Assembly: GCF_020510445.1 (NCBI RefSeq)
Contig: NZ_JAHBAG010000001.1
Coordinates: 4,316,501 to 4,380,500, forward strand
Source: Hydrogenophaga taeniospiralis
GTDB lineage: Bacteria; Pseudomonadota; Gammaproteobacteria; Burkholderiales; Burkholderiaceae_C
DNA length: 64,000 nucleotides
Direction: 5' to 3'
The notes under the pieces are model-generated. The model did not search any database and had not been told where the DNA came from. It saw only the letters and a list, made by a program, of their open reading frames with translations. The translations under genes and the position numbers were made by a program. Positions within the stretch are counted from its first letter, which is position 1. Every line of letters begins with the position of its first letter. This document shows, one piece after another, positions 19,398 through 35,458 of the stretch.

Positions 19398-19489
19398 GGA
19401 AGCCCAGTACATATGTTGAAAGCCCGCCAGCAAAGGCCCCGCCCCGGTGCCCAGGCCCCCCACAGGCCACACTCAAACCAGCGGCCGGA

Positions 19490-20272
19490 TCACCCCGACA
19501 GCCCCACCACCAGCGCCGCGGCCGCCATGTGCGCGCTGGCGGCCTCGCCCACGCGCGCCGCGAACGGGTGCGGCGCAAAGCCCACCCAATGGCCCCCGCC
19601 AGCCAGGGCCAACACCACCTCGTCGCGCTGCGTGCCCTCGGCCACACGCTCCACCGTGCCGTGCAAAACACACTCTTCCCCCGCTGCGCCGCCGCCCCGC
19701 TGCCCTGCCACCGGCGCCTGTACCCGCACCGCCGTGGCCTTGCACAACACCAGCACCTCCAGCCCCGGCGCCAGGCCCAGCAGATCGGCGCTTTCGCGGG
19801 TGATGCTCGACGTCAACCGCTCGCCGCCAGCGGTCTGCATGTGCACCCACACCGCCGGATCGCCAGGCGCCGCGGGCTCCACCGCCACCACGCGACACGG
19901 CAGCTGGTTGCGCATGCTGGTGCGCAGGCCCAGGCCGCTGGCCAGTTGCGCACCGCCGGCAAAACGCGCCAGCACCGCGTCGCGCGCACGGGCCAGCTCA
20001 TCGGCCAGCTGCAGCAGCTGCAAGCCCTGCGCCGTGATGCGCGCGCCACCCCCACCCGCCCCGCCCACCGTGCGCTCCACCAGCGGCACACCGCCCAGGT
20101 TGGTCAGCGTGTCGATGGCCTGCCACGCCGCCTTGTAGCTGATGCCCGCGTCGCGCGCGGCCTGCGAGATGGAGCCCGACTCACCCACCCGGCGCAACAC
20201 CTCCAGGCGCTTGTCGCTGATGGCGTGGCCGAGGGCTTCGGTCAGGGTGGCGTGGAGGGTTGGTGGGGTCAT
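19490..20272 (-). CDS. modE: ModE, molybdate-responsive transcriptional regulator
   Basis: A 260-residue protein with the full ModE plan: an N-terminal winged HTH (EVLRRVGESGSISQAARDAGISYKAAWQAIDTLTN, residues 24-58) followed by two tandem Mop/TOBE domains at about residues 125-195 and 197-260 (RNQLPCRVVAVEP...WVHMQ; ECVLHGTVERV...DEVVLAL) that bind molybdate. It normally represses modABC when molybdate is plentiful. The partner operon starts at 24141 on the other strand, but an island of about 3.5 kb lies between them. The ATG at 20272 fits homologues. Confidence 0.92.
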   Translation of the reverse strand: MTPPTLHATLTEALGHAISDKRLEVLRRVGESGSISQAARDAGISYKAAWQAIDTLTNLGGVPLVERTVGGAGGGGARITAQGLQLLQLADELARARDAVLARFAGGAQLASGLGLRTSMRNQLPCRVVAVEPAAPGDPAVWVHMQTAGGERLTSSITRESADLLGLAPGLEVLVLCKATAVRVQAPVAGQRGGGAAGEECVLHGTVERVAEGTQRDEVVLALAGGGHWVGFAPHPFAARVGEAASAHMAAAALVVGLSG

Positions 20273-20525
20273 AGCGGGATTGTTCCATGGGACTTCAGGT
20301 GCCATGGAGTGGGCGCTGATTCCTGGCTGCGGGGCTGCGCAGTTTTCTGCCTCTAGTCGGCTATTTCCAATCATTCGGAACAGTGCGCTTTGCAGTTGTT
20401 CATTGCGTCTCTTGAAACCCGATTGAGACAGTCCCACGAAGCCGGAGCACTTTGCAAAGTCGCTATGCTTCCTGCGCAAAATGCCTCCCGCTTTGGACTG
20501 AGCTATCCTTCTCCCCACCTACGCC
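20273..20525. other. Junction between modE and the accessory island
   Basis: A 253-bp gap. The half nearest modE is GC-rich; from about 20340 the base composition drops, which suggests the left edge of the inserted segment. AGTCGGCTATTTCCAAT at 20355-20371 resembles half of the ModE-type palindrome at 24076-24104 and may be a degenerate operator. The island promoter should be here; I see no convincing -35/-10 pair. Confidence 0.4.
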
Positions 20526-20951
20526 ATGGCCTACTCGCACAACTACCAGATCTCCGCTCGACGGCACCTGAAAGCTGCCGAGGCGCTCTACGCTCTCAAC
20601 ACAGGGGGTGCCCAGCCCGGCGCGAAGGCCGTCGCAGGCTACTTGTACGGTCTGGCGGGCGAGTTGGCCGTAAAGGAGATGATGACCCAGAGTGGCATGC
20701 GGCCACTTGCGGACGACCAGCGACGCAACGACCCGTTCTACAAGCACTTTCCGGAGTTGAAGTCTTTGCTGCTGGACTCGGCTGCCGGTCGTCGCTCCGG
20801 TGAGCTGCTGAACGTCGCGCGAACGGCTCAGATATTCCAAGAATGGAGCACCGACATGCGGTATGCACCTACATGCGAAGTTCCAACTCACCGAGTGGAT
20901 CGGTGGCAGGGCGACGCCAAGAGGTTAGTCGTTCAGATGGAGGAGCAGTGA
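20526..20951 (+). CDS. Small HEPN-like protein, first gene of the accessory island
   Basis: A 141-residue, mostly helical protein: QISARRHLKAAEALYAL, AGYLYGLAGELAVKEMMTQSG, SGELLNVARTAQIFQEWSTDMRYAP. The arrangement of an Arg/His-rich first helix, an Ala-rich LYGLAGELAVK helix and a terminal WxxxMRY segment is reminiscent of HEPN-type proteins that occur in toxin and defence systems. The classical RxxxxH motif is not clear, so this is a weak assignment. It may be an accessory rather than a nuclease. It overlaps the next gene by one base (TGATG). GC content is visibly lower than in the flanking mod genes. Confidence 0.6.
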   Translation: MAYSHNYQISARRHLKAAEALYALNTGGAQPGAKAVAGYLYGLAGELAVKEMMTQSGMRPLADDQRRNDPFYKHFPELKSLLLDSAAGRRSGELLNVARTAQIFQEWSTDMRYAPTCEVPTHRVDRWQGDAKRLVVQMEEQ

Positions 20952-22348
20952 TGCCGGTACTTTTTGATGATGCATTGCCGATCCTGATCGAGGTTCTCAA
21001 TGAATGGGGTGGCGAGTCGTTCGTCGAGATGGGCACGGTGCTGCGCGACGCGACGGGTCGCCTGAGCTTTTTCGCCCATGAGCGTCCGCCAGTCTCCGCA
21101 CCGTCGGAAACCGGTGCGTCCGCCAGTATTGAGAGCCCACTCGCGCATGACGAGCTGGATTTGGATCCTCTGGGGCGGCGCATTGTCGATCGCCTGGGTG
21201 CCTACGCACGGAAGGATCGGCCGGTGGTATACCCCACTGATGATGGTGCGTCGCCCTTGTTGACTTCTCGCGAGCGCACGCCTGTGCGCGTAGGCGAACA
21301 ATTCTGCTACTTGATCGACCGTCGCATCGTTGGCACGGGTTGGCTGGCCGAACCAGTCGCCGCAGCAACTTCAGGTCCGCGGCGATTGGTGTTCGCGTCG
21401 TTGAAGGGCGGCGTTGGCCGCTCCACTGCTCTTAGCGTGACGGCCGCTGATTTGGCGCGCCGCGGGCGCAATGTGCTAGTAATCGACCTGGACCTTGAGG
21501 CACCCGGTCTGGGCCACCTGCTGCTGGAGGGGGGCCGACTGCCGGATTACGGCGTTGTCGATTTCCTCGTAGAGGATGGCGTTGGCGGCGTCGGGAATGA
21601 CCTGTTGCATCGGTTCGTTGGCACAAGCCAGTTGACATCGTCCAGCGGTGGTGTGGTCGACGTCATGCCTGCGATCGGACGTAAATCCGAAGACAGACCC
21701 GAAAACATCTTGGCCAAACTGTCGCGAGCAATGATCGAAGACATGACCGAAACAGGAACGGTGTCAGTCGGCCAGCAAGTCTCGTCCATGATCAACCGCA
21801 TTGTTGCGCAGGGTTCATACGATGCGGTGCTCATAGACAGCCGGGCCGGCTTGGCCGAACTGGCAGCACCGGCGGTTATCGGGCTCGGCGCCACGGTTCT
21901 GCTGTTCGGCACCGCCCAGACACAGACGATCGAGGGATACAGGGCACTTTTCGCGGCACTTCAGCTCTTGGCGCAGCGCGACGCTGCGCAGGGACGAAGT
22001 GCCGAGTGGCGCCTTGCATTGCGGCCGGTCTACGCCAAGGCAAGTCTGAATACAGAGACTGCCGACTGGTTCCGTGACGAGATCTACGAGTTGTATTCCG
22101 AGTACCTTTATGACGCAGAGCTAGAAGATGTGACCGGTGCTCAGTTCGTTCCCCTGCGGTTCACCCAACAGGACGCGTCTGCCCCACACGCCCCACTGAT
22201 AGTCCCATTCAATCCGGCGTTTGTGGATTTCGATCCTTCTCGCCAACCAACACAGCTGACGGAAGCTTTTTACGAGCAAAGCTTCCGCCCGTTCCTGGAT
22301 GCTATTGATCGCTTCCTTGAGCCTGCTCCTCCTGAGCCCCAAAATTGA
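20951..22348 (+). CDS. ParA/MinD-like ATPase with KGGVGR Walker A variant
   Basis: A 465-residue protein. The first 140 residues are a separate domain (MPVLFDDALPILIEVLNEWGG) of unknown fold. The NTPase follows: deviant Walker A KGGVGRST at residues 152-159 (ParA normally has KGGxGKT/S), Walker A' VLVIDLDLEAPGLGH, and Walker B AVLIDSRAGLAELA. In the Walker A the second Lys/Thr pattern is replaced by Arg-Ser-Thr, while the signature first Lys152 remains. I recall this KGGVGR variant as a named group that occurs with partner ATPases in accessory regions. It overlaps its downstream partner by four bases (TTGA). The context suggests defence or plasmid-like conflict, not chromosome partition. Confidence 0.75.
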   Translation: MPVLFDDALPILIEVLNEWGGESFVEMGTVLRDATGRLSFFAHERPPVSAPSETGASASIESPLAHDELDLDPLGRRIVDRLGAYARKDRPVVYPTDDGASPLLTSRERTPVRVGEQFCYLIDRRIVGTGWLAEPVAAATSGPRRLVFASLKGGVGRSTALSVTAADLARRGRNVLVIDLDLEAPGLGHLLLEGGRLPDYGVVDFLVEDGVGGVGNDLLHRFVGTSQLTSSSGGVVDVMPAIGRKSEDRPENILAKLSRAMIEDMTETGTVSVGQQVSSMINRIVAQGSYDAVLIDSRAGLAELAAPAVIGLGATVLLFGTAQTQTIEGYRALFAALQLLAQRDAAQGRSAEWRLALRPVYAKASLNTETADWFRDEIYELYSEYLYDAELEDVTGAQFVPLRFTQQDASAPHAPLIVPFNPAFVDFDPSRQPTQLTEAFYEQSFRPFLDAIDRFLEPAPPEPQN

Positions 22349-23793
22349 ACTACGACTCCATTCCCTTCACCGACATCCGCAGAGCGATTGCCGAGTTTCA
22401 GCTGGCGTCGAGGGTGGAGCCGAACGCCACCATCCTGCCTGAAGAGGTCTTCTTGCCTGTCGGTCATCGAGGCGTGCTCGACCTGCGTCGGCAGCTTGTG
22501 GTCGGCAATCGGGGCATGGGAAAGAGCTTCTGGACTCACGCGCTCGGGAACAAAGACATTCGTGACAAGCTGGCTGGGCACTACCGGTTTCCCGAACTCA
22601 AGTCGACTGAAGTCAGAATTGGCTTCAACGGCTCTGAAAAGAAGCAGGTCTTCGCACCCACCGTGGACGAGTTGGCCGAAATCCGGCAGCTGTCGATCGG
22701 CAACCCCGACCTCATCTGGAAGGCCTTGCTGCTGCGCATCGCTGAGGACATGCTCGGCAAGAAGTTCGACACGCTGGCCGCCACCATCGGCACGCTTCTC
22801 CAACGGCCCAGCCTCTACTCGGAAATGCTCTCACAGTTAGACGATCAGCTGTCCCAAAAAAGGGAGCACCTACTGGTCGTTTTCGATGCGCTCGACAGGC
22901 TGGCGCAGGACTGGGGCACCATCAGAGAACTGACGCGCGCCCTTTTGCGCTTGGCGATCGGACTTCAGTCCTTCCAGTCCATCCGAACCAAAATATTCAT
23001 GCGCGTTGACCTGTTTTCAGACCGAGAGATTTTCAGGTTTCAAGACAGCTCCAAGATCAAGAACGACCATGTCAGCTTGGTATGGCAACCGGAAGAGCTG
23101 TATGGCCTCGTACTATTCGAGATCCTGCGTAGTCCAGATGGAAATTCGGCATTGAAGATGCTCGCTGCTCAGACCGATGCAACGGCCGCACTGCCCATCA
23201 ACGGAGAGGACAGCAGGTTACATATGAACGAGCAGCGTAGGCTGGTGCATGCCGTGGCGGGCGAGTTTATGGGAAGCAGCAAGAAGCGCGGCCTGGTGTA
23301 CACATGGGTTCCCCTGCATCTGAGCGATGCAGCCGACACCTGTTCGCCTCGAACCTTTCTCACGGCCTGGAAAGAGGCGGCGAAGCGTGTGCCCGCTCCC
23401 ACAGACCGAGCCATCGACCACCTGGGTCTCCTCGACGGGGTGCGGTCGGCGTCTCGGAGCCGCTTGAACGAGCTTTATGAGGACTACGAGTGGATCCGCC
23501 CCTCGCTGGAGGCACTCAAGCGACAGTTCGTTCCCATGACGCGCGACCAGCTCTTCCAACTTTGGGAGGACGGCCGCGTCATACTCGCCATTGAATCGTC
23601 GACGCATGGCGAGGTGTTTAAGACACCCGCAGGCCTGACGGATAACCCTGGGCCTGAAGCCCTGCTCGAAGCGATGAAAGCCGTTGCCGTAATAGACGAA
23701 CGCAGCAATGGCAAGATCAATGTGCCAGACATTTACCGAGTTGAAGCTGGCATCCTGCGCAAGGGTGGTGTCGCAGTCCCCAAACGGCACTAG
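22345..23793 (+). CDS. P-loop NTPase partner of the KGGVGR ATPase
   Basis: A 482-residue protein with Walker A GNRGMGKS at residues 54-61 and Walker B HLLVVFDALDRL at about 175-185, followed by a sensor-like segment SIRTKIFMRVDLF. The organisation resembles STAND/KAP-like or Sll1717-type P-loop ATPases often seen in defence loci. The C-terminal 200 residues show no recognisable domain. The start is TTG, forming a TTGA overlap with the upstream stop; the next in-frame ATG is far downstream and would remove the start of the P-loop region. Tight coupling implies a complex with the upstream ATPase. Confidence 0.75.
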   Translation: MNYDSIPFTDIRRAIAEFQLASRVEPNATILPEEVFLPVGHRGVLDLRRQLVVGNRGMGKSFWTHALGNKDIRDKLAGHYRFPELKSTEVRIGFNGSEKKQVFAPTVDELAEIRQLSIGNPDLIWKALLLRIAEDMLGKKFDTLAATIGTLLQRPSLYSEMLSQLDDQLSQKREHLLVVFDALDRLAQDWGTIRELTRALLRLAIGLQSFQSIRTKIFMRVDLFSDREIFRFQDSSKIKNDHVSLVWQPEELYGLVLFEILRSPDGNSALKMLAAQTDATAALPINGEDSRLHMNEQRRLVHAVAGEFMGSSKKRGLVYTWVPLHLSDAADTCSPRTFLTAWKEAAKRVPAPTDRAIDHLGLLDGVRSASRSRLNELYEDYEWIRPSLEALKRQFVPMTRDQLFQLWEDGRVILAIESSTHGEVFKTPAGLTDNPGPEALLEAMKAVAVIDERSNGKINVPDIYRVEAGILRKGGVAVPKRH

Positions 23794-24075
23794 GCTGAAT
23801 GGATATCAGCCTCGGCGCTCCCACGACATAGAAACGAACCAGAAGCCCGAGGGTGCGACAGCTTCAATCTTTGCCGAGGTTGAGCGTCTGACATGCAGCC
23901 TAGGCGCAGAGCCAAATGAGTAGCTCGCAGACGTCCGACATCGGGAAATTTGCTCAAATGCACTGACCGGCTCCTCTGGGACGAGGCCGCCCAGTCTCAT
24001 CCACACCGCGAGCACACCCCAAAGGACCCAGTCGAAGCAGGCCCTCCACCCGGATCAAAAGAAAACACCCGCTAC
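23794..24075. other. Right flank of the island, no gene recognised
   Basis: Together with the ModE-box region this makes a 347-bp gap before modA. A frame from about 23795 to 23923 encodes YQPRRSHDIETNQKPEGATASIFAEVERL-like sequence (about 40 residues) without a plausible start, which could be a remnant of a further island gene. I see no att-like direct repeat, tRNA or integrase. Confidence 0.4.
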
Positions 24076-24104
24076 ACTCGCTATTCCATTTTGGGATAGC
24101 GAGT
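24076..24104. promoter_or_regulatory. ModE-binding palindrome upstream of modA
   Basis: ACTCGCTAT (24076-24084) and ATAGCGAGT (24096-24104) form perfect 9-bp arms with an 11-bp spacer. The geometry and CGCTAT/ATAGCG ends resemble ModE boxes. It lies 37 bases before modA, consistent with repression of the operon by ModE-molybdate. Confidence 0.75.
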
Positions 24105-24140
24105 TCCCGCCGCCGTGTCCCGCACCGATCCGAGGTCCCC

Positions 24141-24896
24141 ATGCCCAAGCCCGTTCGCCCTCTCACCGCCCTGCTCTTCTCCGCGCTAGTGCACAGCGCG
24201 ACCCAGGCCGCCGAAGCCCAGGTGGCGGTGGCGGCCAACTTTGCCGAGCCGATCAAGGCGATTGCCGCCGTGCTGGAAAAGACCACCGGCCACACGCTGA
24301 AGATCACGCTGGGCTCCACCGGCAAGCTCTACGCGCAGATCCGGAACGGCGCGCCGTTTGACGTGCTACTGGCGGCCGACACCAAGACGCCCGAGGCGCT
24401 GGAAAAAGATGGCCTGGCCCAGCCCGGCAGCCGCTTCACCTACGCCACCGGCAAGCTGGTGCTGTGGTCGGCCGACGCGAGCAAGGTGGACGCCCAGGGC
24501 GAGGTGCTCAAGAGCGCCGGCCTGCGCAAGCTGGCCTACGCCGCGCCCAAGGTGGCGCCCTACGGCGCCGCCGCGGTGCAGGCCATGGACAAGCTGGGCC
24601 TGGCCGCCGCGCTCGCGCCCAAGCTGGTGCAGGGCGAGAGCATTGGCCAGACCTTCAGCTTCGTCTACACCGGCAACGCCGACGTGGGCTTTGTCGCGCT
24701 GTCGCAGGTGCTCGAAGGCGGCAAGCTCAAGAGCGGTTCGATGTGGGTGGTTCCGCAGACGCTGTACAGCCCGATCCGGCAAGACGCCGTGGTGCTGAAG
24801 AAGGCGGCCGGCAACGAGGCGGCGCAGGCCTTGGTGAAGCTGCTGCAAAGCCCGAACATCCAGGACCTGATCCGTTCCTACGGCTATGGCATTTGA
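24141..24896 (+). CDS. modA: ModA, periplasmic molybdate-binding protein
   Basis: A 251-residue protein with a signal peptide (LTALLFSALVHSATQAAEA). ModA-type motifs are VAVAANFAEPIKAIAAVLEKTTG, LGSTGKLYAQIRNGAPFDVLLAADTKTPEAL, PYGAAAVQAM and the hinge VYTGNADVGFVALSQV. It captures molybdate for ModB/ModC. It is the first gene of modABC, which is 15 bases and then four overlapping bases between members. The ModE-like operator is just upstream. This placement next to the formate dehydrogenase region makes sense, because that enzyme needs a Mo or W cofactor. Confidence 0.94.
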   Translation: MPKPVRPLTALLFSALVHSATQAAEAQVAVAANFAEPIKAIAAVLEKTTGHTLKITLGSTGKLYAQIRNGAPFDVLLAADTKTPEALEKDGLAQPGSRFTYATGKLVLWSADASKVDAQGEVLKSAGLRKLAYAAPKVAPYGAAAVQAMDKLGLAAALAPKLVQGESIGQTFSFVYTGNADVGFVALSQVLEGGKLKSGSMWVVPQTLYSPIRQDAVVLKKAAGNEAAQALVKLLQSPNIQDLIRSYGYGI

Positions 24897-35256: not shown

Positions 35257-35354
35257 TGGACGACCCTCCGTGCTGCGCACTGTGGGGCTGAGCGCCTTCG
35301 GAGCGGTCGGGCGGCGCTCATGGCAACCCGGGCCGCGACCGGCCAGCGAAGGGG

Positions 35355-35447
35355 CGGAGGGGAATGGGAGTCGAACCCACCCGGCGACGCATGGCGCCAC
35401 CCACCGGGTTTGAAGCCCGGCCGATCCACCAGGATCGTTTCCCCTCC
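35355..35447 (-). tRNA. selC: tRNA-Sec (anticodon UCA)
   Basis: A 93-nt RNA on the minus strand with an eight-pair acceptor stem (GGAGGGGA with TTCCCCTCC, discriminator G), an anticodon arm CCGGG-CTTCAAA-CCCGG with anticodon TCA at 35413-35411, a very long variable arm (GGGTGGCGCCATGCGTCGCC), and a T-arm GGGTGGGTTCGACTCCC. This is the unusual architecture of bacterial tRNA-Sec. CCA is not encoded (the next bases are CCC). selB and selA lie just upstream, and fdoG carries a UGA to decode. Confidence 0.96.
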
Positions 35448-35458
35448 GCAAAAAACAG

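Follow-up and report, generated by a model that had tools for sequence, protein, structure and literature searches.

We analysed a window of 64,000 nucleotides from Hydrogenophaga taeniospiralis (contig NZ_JAHBAG010000001.1, positions 4,316,501 to 4,380,500 of the forward strand; coordinates below are those of the window unless a locus is named), in which a cassette of three genes, here called A, B and C, lies between modE and modA.

20526-20951, plus strand: gene A, 141 amino acids; HEPN protein, PDC-M28A, predicted RNase effector
20951-22348, plus strand: gene B, 465 amino acids; KGGVGR-motif protein of MinD/ParA fold, PDC-M28B
22345-23793, plus strand: gene C, 482 amino acids; STAND/ORC-like AAA ATPase by predicted fold, PDC-M28C

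The genes are joined by translational overlaps, TGATG between A and B, where the ATG of B at 20951 overlaps the TGA of A, and TTGA between B and C, where the TTG start of C at 22345 overlaps the TGA of B. An initial annotation, made from the letters alone, had given these overlaps and coordinates together with the motifs KGGVGRST (residues 152-159 of B), GNRGMGKS and VVFDALDRL (both in C), and all were confirmed. Third codon positions take most of the differences from relatives in all 11 gene comparisons (for B and its Rubrivivax copy, 0.15, 0.07 and 0.50 at codon positions 1, 2 and 3), and A, B and C are therefore real, selected genes. The lower GC content attributed to the cassette was borne out by measurement: it is 0.594, against 0.678 in the remaining window, and the lowest value among 538 overlapping stretches of the same size taken outside the insert is 0.63.

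Each protein matches, near its full length, its own family in a single adjacent three-gene set that PADLOC-DB catalogues as PDC-M28, an unvalidated phage defence candidate (PDC): A matches PDLC04558 (PDC-M28A; E 7.8e-21, residues 4-138), B matches PDLC04559 (PDC-M28B; E 2.3e-97, residues 1-457) and C matches PDLC04561 (PDC-M28C; E 3.6e-112, residues 8-478). The cassette thus adds a member to a candidate already in the catalogue, and no difference between the two was found. This supersedes the statement in the initial annotation that the genes could not be matched to a named system, and agrees with its description of an architecture like that of anti-phage systems; defence itself is, as before, inferred. 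No paper with the terms PDC-M28, KGGVGR or Sll1717 was found in the open-licence PubMed Central literature, and the accessible portion of the PADLOC 2022 paper (PMC9252829) does not contain the PDC term.

Protein A is a HEPN protein by predicted fold, with the residue set of the AbiV/AF0298 type. The Foldseek and VIA lists obtained with its predicted model (predicted local distance difference test, pLDDT, 93) are both headed by HEPN structures; in such fold lists the absence of a family proves nothing. By sequence, A of the window matches no solved structure and no Pfam or NCBIfam model. Three of eight A proteins scanned match HEPN_AbiV of Pfam, the best with E 5.3e-5 and under the curated cut-off, which, with the fold lists, upholds the earlier suggestion of a small, helical, HEPN-like protein. 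The best other member scores 23.9 of 27.1 bits with PF18728 and 22.1 of 27 bits with TIGR04498, and no A protein examined reaches the curated cut-offs of these two models, that is, of the AbiV family proper. The residues of interest, with helix positions taken from the predicted model, are the following.

20661-20675, plus strand: E46-x3-K50 of helix 2, corresponding to the HEPN Ex3[KR] motif; invariant in a 56-sequence alignment
20745-20747, plus strand: H74, invariant; follows helix 2 (33-55) and precedes the R112 region; a possible alternative catalytic histidine
20859-20864, plus strand: R112-Y113, an invariant pair; R112 is read as the arginine of Rx4-6H, with the histidine missing

All four residues of the AbiV/AF0298-type set (Ex3[KR], an arginine and an alternative histidine between helices 2 and 3) are accordingly present, E46, K50, H74 and R112 being invariant in an alignment that spans down to about 20% identity to A of the window. 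The canonical Rx4-6H motif of HEPN RNases is absent, no histidine being conserved 5-7 residues past R112 in the 56 sequences. The Ex3[KR] motif is described in the available part of PMC3710099, on the basis of which R112 would correspond to the arginine of Rx4-6H and H74 would be the candidate alternative histidine.

Protein B scores 182.5 bits with NF047398, the KGGVGR-motif variant AAA ATPase family, where the cut-off is 90; the same model gives four matches in the genome of the window, with B alone over the cut-off, and weak matches in 14 control genomes, none of them over it. Searched by sequence against solved structures, B has 44 matches, nearly all of MinD/ParA/ArsA type and lying over the Walker region.

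21404-21427, plus strand: KGGVGRST, residues 152-159; deviant Walker A with arginine for the second lysine
21836-21850, plus strand: DSRAG, Walker-B-like; D296, R298, A299 and G300 invariant in a 51-sequence alignment

The deviant Walker A of MinD and ParA, KGGxGK[ST] with both lysines, is not present in B. KGGVGR is found in 119 of 119 B homologues among the matches listed, the usual lysine in none of them, and the first description of B as a ParA/MinD-type ATPase with an altered Walker A motif is in agreement with both the family match and this count. The region ahead of KGGVGRST, which had been estimated as a domain of about 140 residues of unknown fold, measures about 143 residues. Across the 51 sequences the invariant positions are K152, R157, D179, D181, D296 and R298, with a late pair, P412-H413. 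MinD/ParA-like domains that are predicted to be inactive are described in other conflict systems in the consulted portion of Kaur et al. 2020 (PMC7159879), and the likeliest role of B would be that of an inactive or slow nucleotide latch.

Judged by its score with NF047389 (65.9 bits, under the cut-off of 75), protein C is a distant relative of the Sll1717-family ATPases. The Foldseek list of its predicted model (pLDDT 90.3) is headed by archaeal ORC2 and BrxC, followed by other AAA+ proteins, and the VIA list by NLR/CED-4-type rows; among solved structures searched by sequence there is a single match, with E 0.086. Both Walker motifs, a feature of STAND NTPases, are intact.

22504-22527, plus strand: Walker A GNRGMGKS, residues 54-61; G59 and K60 invariant in a 50-sequence alignment
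22876-22902, plus strand: Walker B VVFDALDRL, residues 178-186; F180 and D181 invariant in the same alignment

Between the two identities first proposed for C, the STAND type is retained, as STAND/ORC-like by predicted fold, and the KAP NTPase type, for which the match reached only E 0.072, is set aside. In its predicted fold C resembles Avs, BrxC and ORC-type STAND and AAA+ ATPases, from which it differs in being only about 10-16% identical to them in fold alignments; unlike Avs, it carries no extra sensor or effector domain and belongs to a small three-gene unit.

In four loci, C homologues lying downstream of A and B run on into two further domains, one a calcineurin-like phosphoesterase and the other NACHT, and in a fifth, L094, B and C form one protein of 915 residues with A upstream, which suggests that B and C act together.

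L086, 9107-14479: C-phosphoesterase-NACHT fusion
L087, 5478-10802: C-phosphoesterase-NACHT fusion
L088, 9157-13143: C-phosphoesterase-NACHT fusion
L089, 7515-12590: C-phosphoesterase-NACHT fusion
L094, 8791-11538: B-C fusion

The four phosphoesterase-NACHT loci could possibly be two-effector immune operons. The same pair of domains occurs in DS-8 (metallophosphatase-NACHT, from DefensePredictor), where it has been experimentally validated against phage; the likeness concerns these distant C homologues, since C of the window has neither domain, and the fused L087 protein itself lies far under the cut-offs (72.8 of 790 for DS8 and 96.3 of 420 for DS9_1).

These features of A and C bear on a reading in which A would be a non-enzymatic RNA- or protein-binding adaptor and C, together with B, the active part, working in an ORC- or BrxC-like manner on invading DNA or on replication. 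The absence of Rx4-6H from A, the place of ORC2 and BrxC at the top of the Foldseek list, and the separate upstream A that still accompanies C when the latter is fused to phosphoesterase and NACHT domains all fit this idea, which we nevertheless regard as unlikely, as the invariance of E46, K50, H74 and R112, which holds to about 20% identity, goes beyond what a scaffold should require.

In the genus of the window, modE and modA usually stand back to back (divergent) and close to each other. We surveyed 29 same-genus modE loci (L005-L033) among 36 other modE matches, the window's own being excluded. The two genes are separated by at most 249 bp in 17 of these loci, which bears out the earlier view that the cassette splits normally adjacent genes, and by 0.67-1.13 kb in three; 1.9-9.1 kb of other genes lie between them in five, and in the examined stretch of the last four, three of which reach a contig end, modA was not found. 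Within the examined stretches, none of the 29 loci contains A, B or C. At an empty site of the same genus (L006/L063) the blocks of homology stop at 20289 and resume at 24068, and there 39 bp separate the two; the insert therefore extends over about the following interval.

20290-24067, no strand assigned: insert, by comparison with the empty site L006/L063; about 3.8 kb, of low GC

The insertion leaves modE intact, as well as a perfect 8-bp inverted repeat, CTCGCTAT-N11-ATAGCGAG, at 24077-24103, before modA and outside the mapped insert, which resembles a ModE box. Repeats at the insert are confined to short, chance-like pairs. A consensus search found no sigma-70 promoter at the cassette, the two terminator-like sites are below the number given by shuffles, and no RNA family was found in 19400-24400; elsewhere in the window, a selenocysteine tRNA gene lies at 35353-35448 on the minus strand.

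The modE-modA junction is a variable site. In other species of the genus (L049, L050, L051, L053, L055, L056 and L057) it holds different cargo, including nor-like blocks and genes of corrin methyltransferase type (in both cases identified from the sequence by eye), a CHASE3 chemoreceptor and a second molybdate-type transporter, and partial second copies of modE are present in L050, L052 and L056. Neither the methyl-accepting chemotaxis protein (MCP) gene of L055 nor a small gene of L052 matches anything in PADLOC.

Among relatives, C occurs at E 1e-20 in only three of 147 genomes, a count that includes the genome of the window; of the two further carriers, one belongs to the same genus and has its copy, a divergent one, at a different place. 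Together with the absence of A, B and C from the 29 junctions, this confirms the variable presence that the initial annotation had asked about. The PDC-M28C family was found in 15 of 397 genomes sampled from the phylum, again counting that of the window, and in none of 14 control genomes; at the level of the family, two of 399 genomes have B at E <=1e-100, a threshold too stringent for divergent copies to be counted. From the position of the cassette, in the promoter region between the divergent modE and modA and oriented toward modA, one might suspect a housekeeping or metabolic role, such as the regulation of molybdate uptake by a unit native to the surroundings of modABC. We reject such a role as highly improbable because presence is patchy and the cassette was not seen at this site in the 29 same-genus loci examined; moreover, the GC content of the cassette is lower than that of the rest of the window, other cargo fills the same site in other species, and the other copies adjoin unrelated genes, as judged by eye. 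Homologues that are universal and syntenic, and a housekeeping complex matching all three proteins, were both looked for and not found.

At E 0.001 the homologues form 548 clusters for A and, among the best approximately 8000 candidates each, at least 1956 for B, a set that may include other ParA-like proteins, and at least 793 for C. Carriers of the cassette include Pseudorhodoferax, Rubrivivax, Zoogloea, Rhodovulum, Acidipila, a Bryobacteraceae metagenome-assembled genome (MAG) and a Myxococcota MAG; their record titles include proteobacteria, acidobacteria and the Myxococcota MAG, and we take these genera to represent several phyla. Since a simple gene finder overlooked B in the window, and either B or C in several loci, the genes were counted by profile searches. 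By this count 42 of 45 loci, viral-collection contigs among them, have the order A-B-C on one strand (41 with separate genes, and L094 with its B-C fusion), the arrangement that the initial annotation had proposed to look for in other genomes. The exceptions are L042 and L048, which lie at contig ends, and L095, with only a fragment of C; L048 may be the remainder of the broken-off C of L035. The match to A is short in L085, L093 and L039, the last at a contig end. Because most non-viral loci supplied rows to the profiles, the IMG/VR viral collection is the independent part of this test. An alignment scan of its contigs gave 13 loci, a single-protein scan none, and all three genes are present in order in 13 of 13, or in 12 of the 12 that are independent of the profiles, L103 being the same contig as L037. 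The cassettes of L112 and L113 are nearly identical.

Several copies lie among genes of mobile elements. In L107 (3781-8292) a P2-type portal gene lies approximately 190 bp past the end of the cassette, with genes for terminase, scaffold and capsid after it, and in L111 (1251-8428) it stands between a replication-initiation-like gene and terminase and scaffold genes. These positions, on P2-like viral contigs, resemble the gpA-gpQ region of P2-like phages, a hotspot of anti-phage systems according to the part available of Rousset et al. 2022 (PMC9122126). An integrase gene lies upstream and a primase gene downstream of the cassette in L104, lambda-type genes are near it in L109 and L112, and a recombinase gene in L110; in L037 (703-13307, Rhodovulum) a type I restriction enzyme gene, a type II-like methylase gene and an integrase fragment are close by. 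Deposited phages gave no match among 50,697 at E 1e-20.

Mobility, and the company of a HEPN protein and a ParA-like ATPase, raise the possibility of a toxin-antitoxin or addiction module, with A as the HEPN toxin, B as the antitoxin and C as a regulator, that would mainly stabilise mobile elements. The nearest published idea that we found, at least in the portion of Anantharaman 2013 available (PMC3710099), is of this kind: HEPN genes of the MAE_18760 family, adjacent to a ParA/Soj-like ATPase gene of the SIMIBI class, are proposed there as dyads of toxin and ATPase antitoxin. The cassette is like them in this adjacency, but the dyads have two genes and their HEPN family is marked as retaining its motif, whereas the cassette has three genes, an alternative site in A, the KGGVGR motif in B and a STAND/ORC-like partner. 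The HEPN gene coming first, the close overlaps, and the presence of the unit in viral-collection contigs and in a small number of plasmids would also suit such a module. We nonetheless hold it to be improbable: a third gene, which encodes an intact ATPase and is retained in 42 of the 45 loci, should be more than an addiction module needs, and of 72,556 plasmid records only five give a match at E 1e-30.

We favour, as rather more probable than the alternatives taken together, the interpretation of the cassette as a horizontally moving three-component immune system of the abortive-infection type, a member of PDC-M28 in which a HEPN RNase is gated by two NTPases, and in this sense the interpretation of the first annotation is supported. 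The annotation had proposed to look for known defence genes near other copies. When 234 neighbouring open reading frames (ORFs; >=110 amino acids, score >=70, within 7 kb), selected by the simple gene finder from 26 loci, were compared with PADLOC at E 1e-10, a first batch of 93 matched 117 families, the 25 of these that were listed including type I methylase, specificity and restriction proteins, a type II methylase, MzaA (in L043, over residues 437-705 only), PDC-S24 and RT_UG29; the second batch of 141 matched 21 families, mostly of seemingly low specificity (mads, AriA, E1-E2), together with an RtcR regulator and RT-Protease XI. As the PADLOC matches among these neighbours amount to little and most chromosomal neighbourhoods consist, by eye, of ordinary genes, the linkage of the cassette to defence islands is weak.

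In the immune system that we propose, C would be the sensor or switch of infection, a STAND/ORC-like NTPase that hydrolyses ATP and is extended at its C-terminus, which recognises a cue of the invader and then changes state or oligomerises. B, in which arginine always replaces the second Walker A lysine, probably binds nucleotide without normal turnover and would be the adaptor, bound to both C and A, that keeps A silent and relays the signal of C. The effector would be A, a HEPN RNase of the AbiV/AF0298 kind that uses E46 and K50 of the Ex3K motif, H74 and R112; freed upon infection, it would cut RNA and so stop the cell or the phage. To our knowledge, AbiV has no MinD or STAND partners. From AbiV/AF0298 proteins the cassette differs also in that A of the window lacks the Pfam and NCBIfam matches, to HEPN_AbiV and AbiV_defense, that some other A proteins show under the cut-off, and in its three genes, the title of structure 9bj6 speaking of a two-component system.

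A further step, which we put forward tentatively and with somewhat less than even confidence, is that PDC-M28 represents a distinct immune class, in which a STAND-like ATPase signals via a hydrolysis-deficient, MinD-like, nucleotide-locked latch on an AbiV-type HEPN RNase, and that in one lineage the ATPase has been joined to a DS-8-like phosphoesterase-NACHT pair, giving a two-tier system within one operon. The gene set itself is already catalogued, and the interest lies in its uncharacterised mechanism: the set spans several phyla and viral-collection contigs, yet we found no paper that describes it, and the C-phosphoesterase-NACHT fusions tie it to a domain pair with experimentally validated anti-phage activity. 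Its anatomy is open to experiment, with named residues of a putative RNase, an invariant arginine where an ATPase should have lysine, and an intact ATPase switch. If the proposal is true, a MinD-like latch would join the known ways of gating HEPN RNases.

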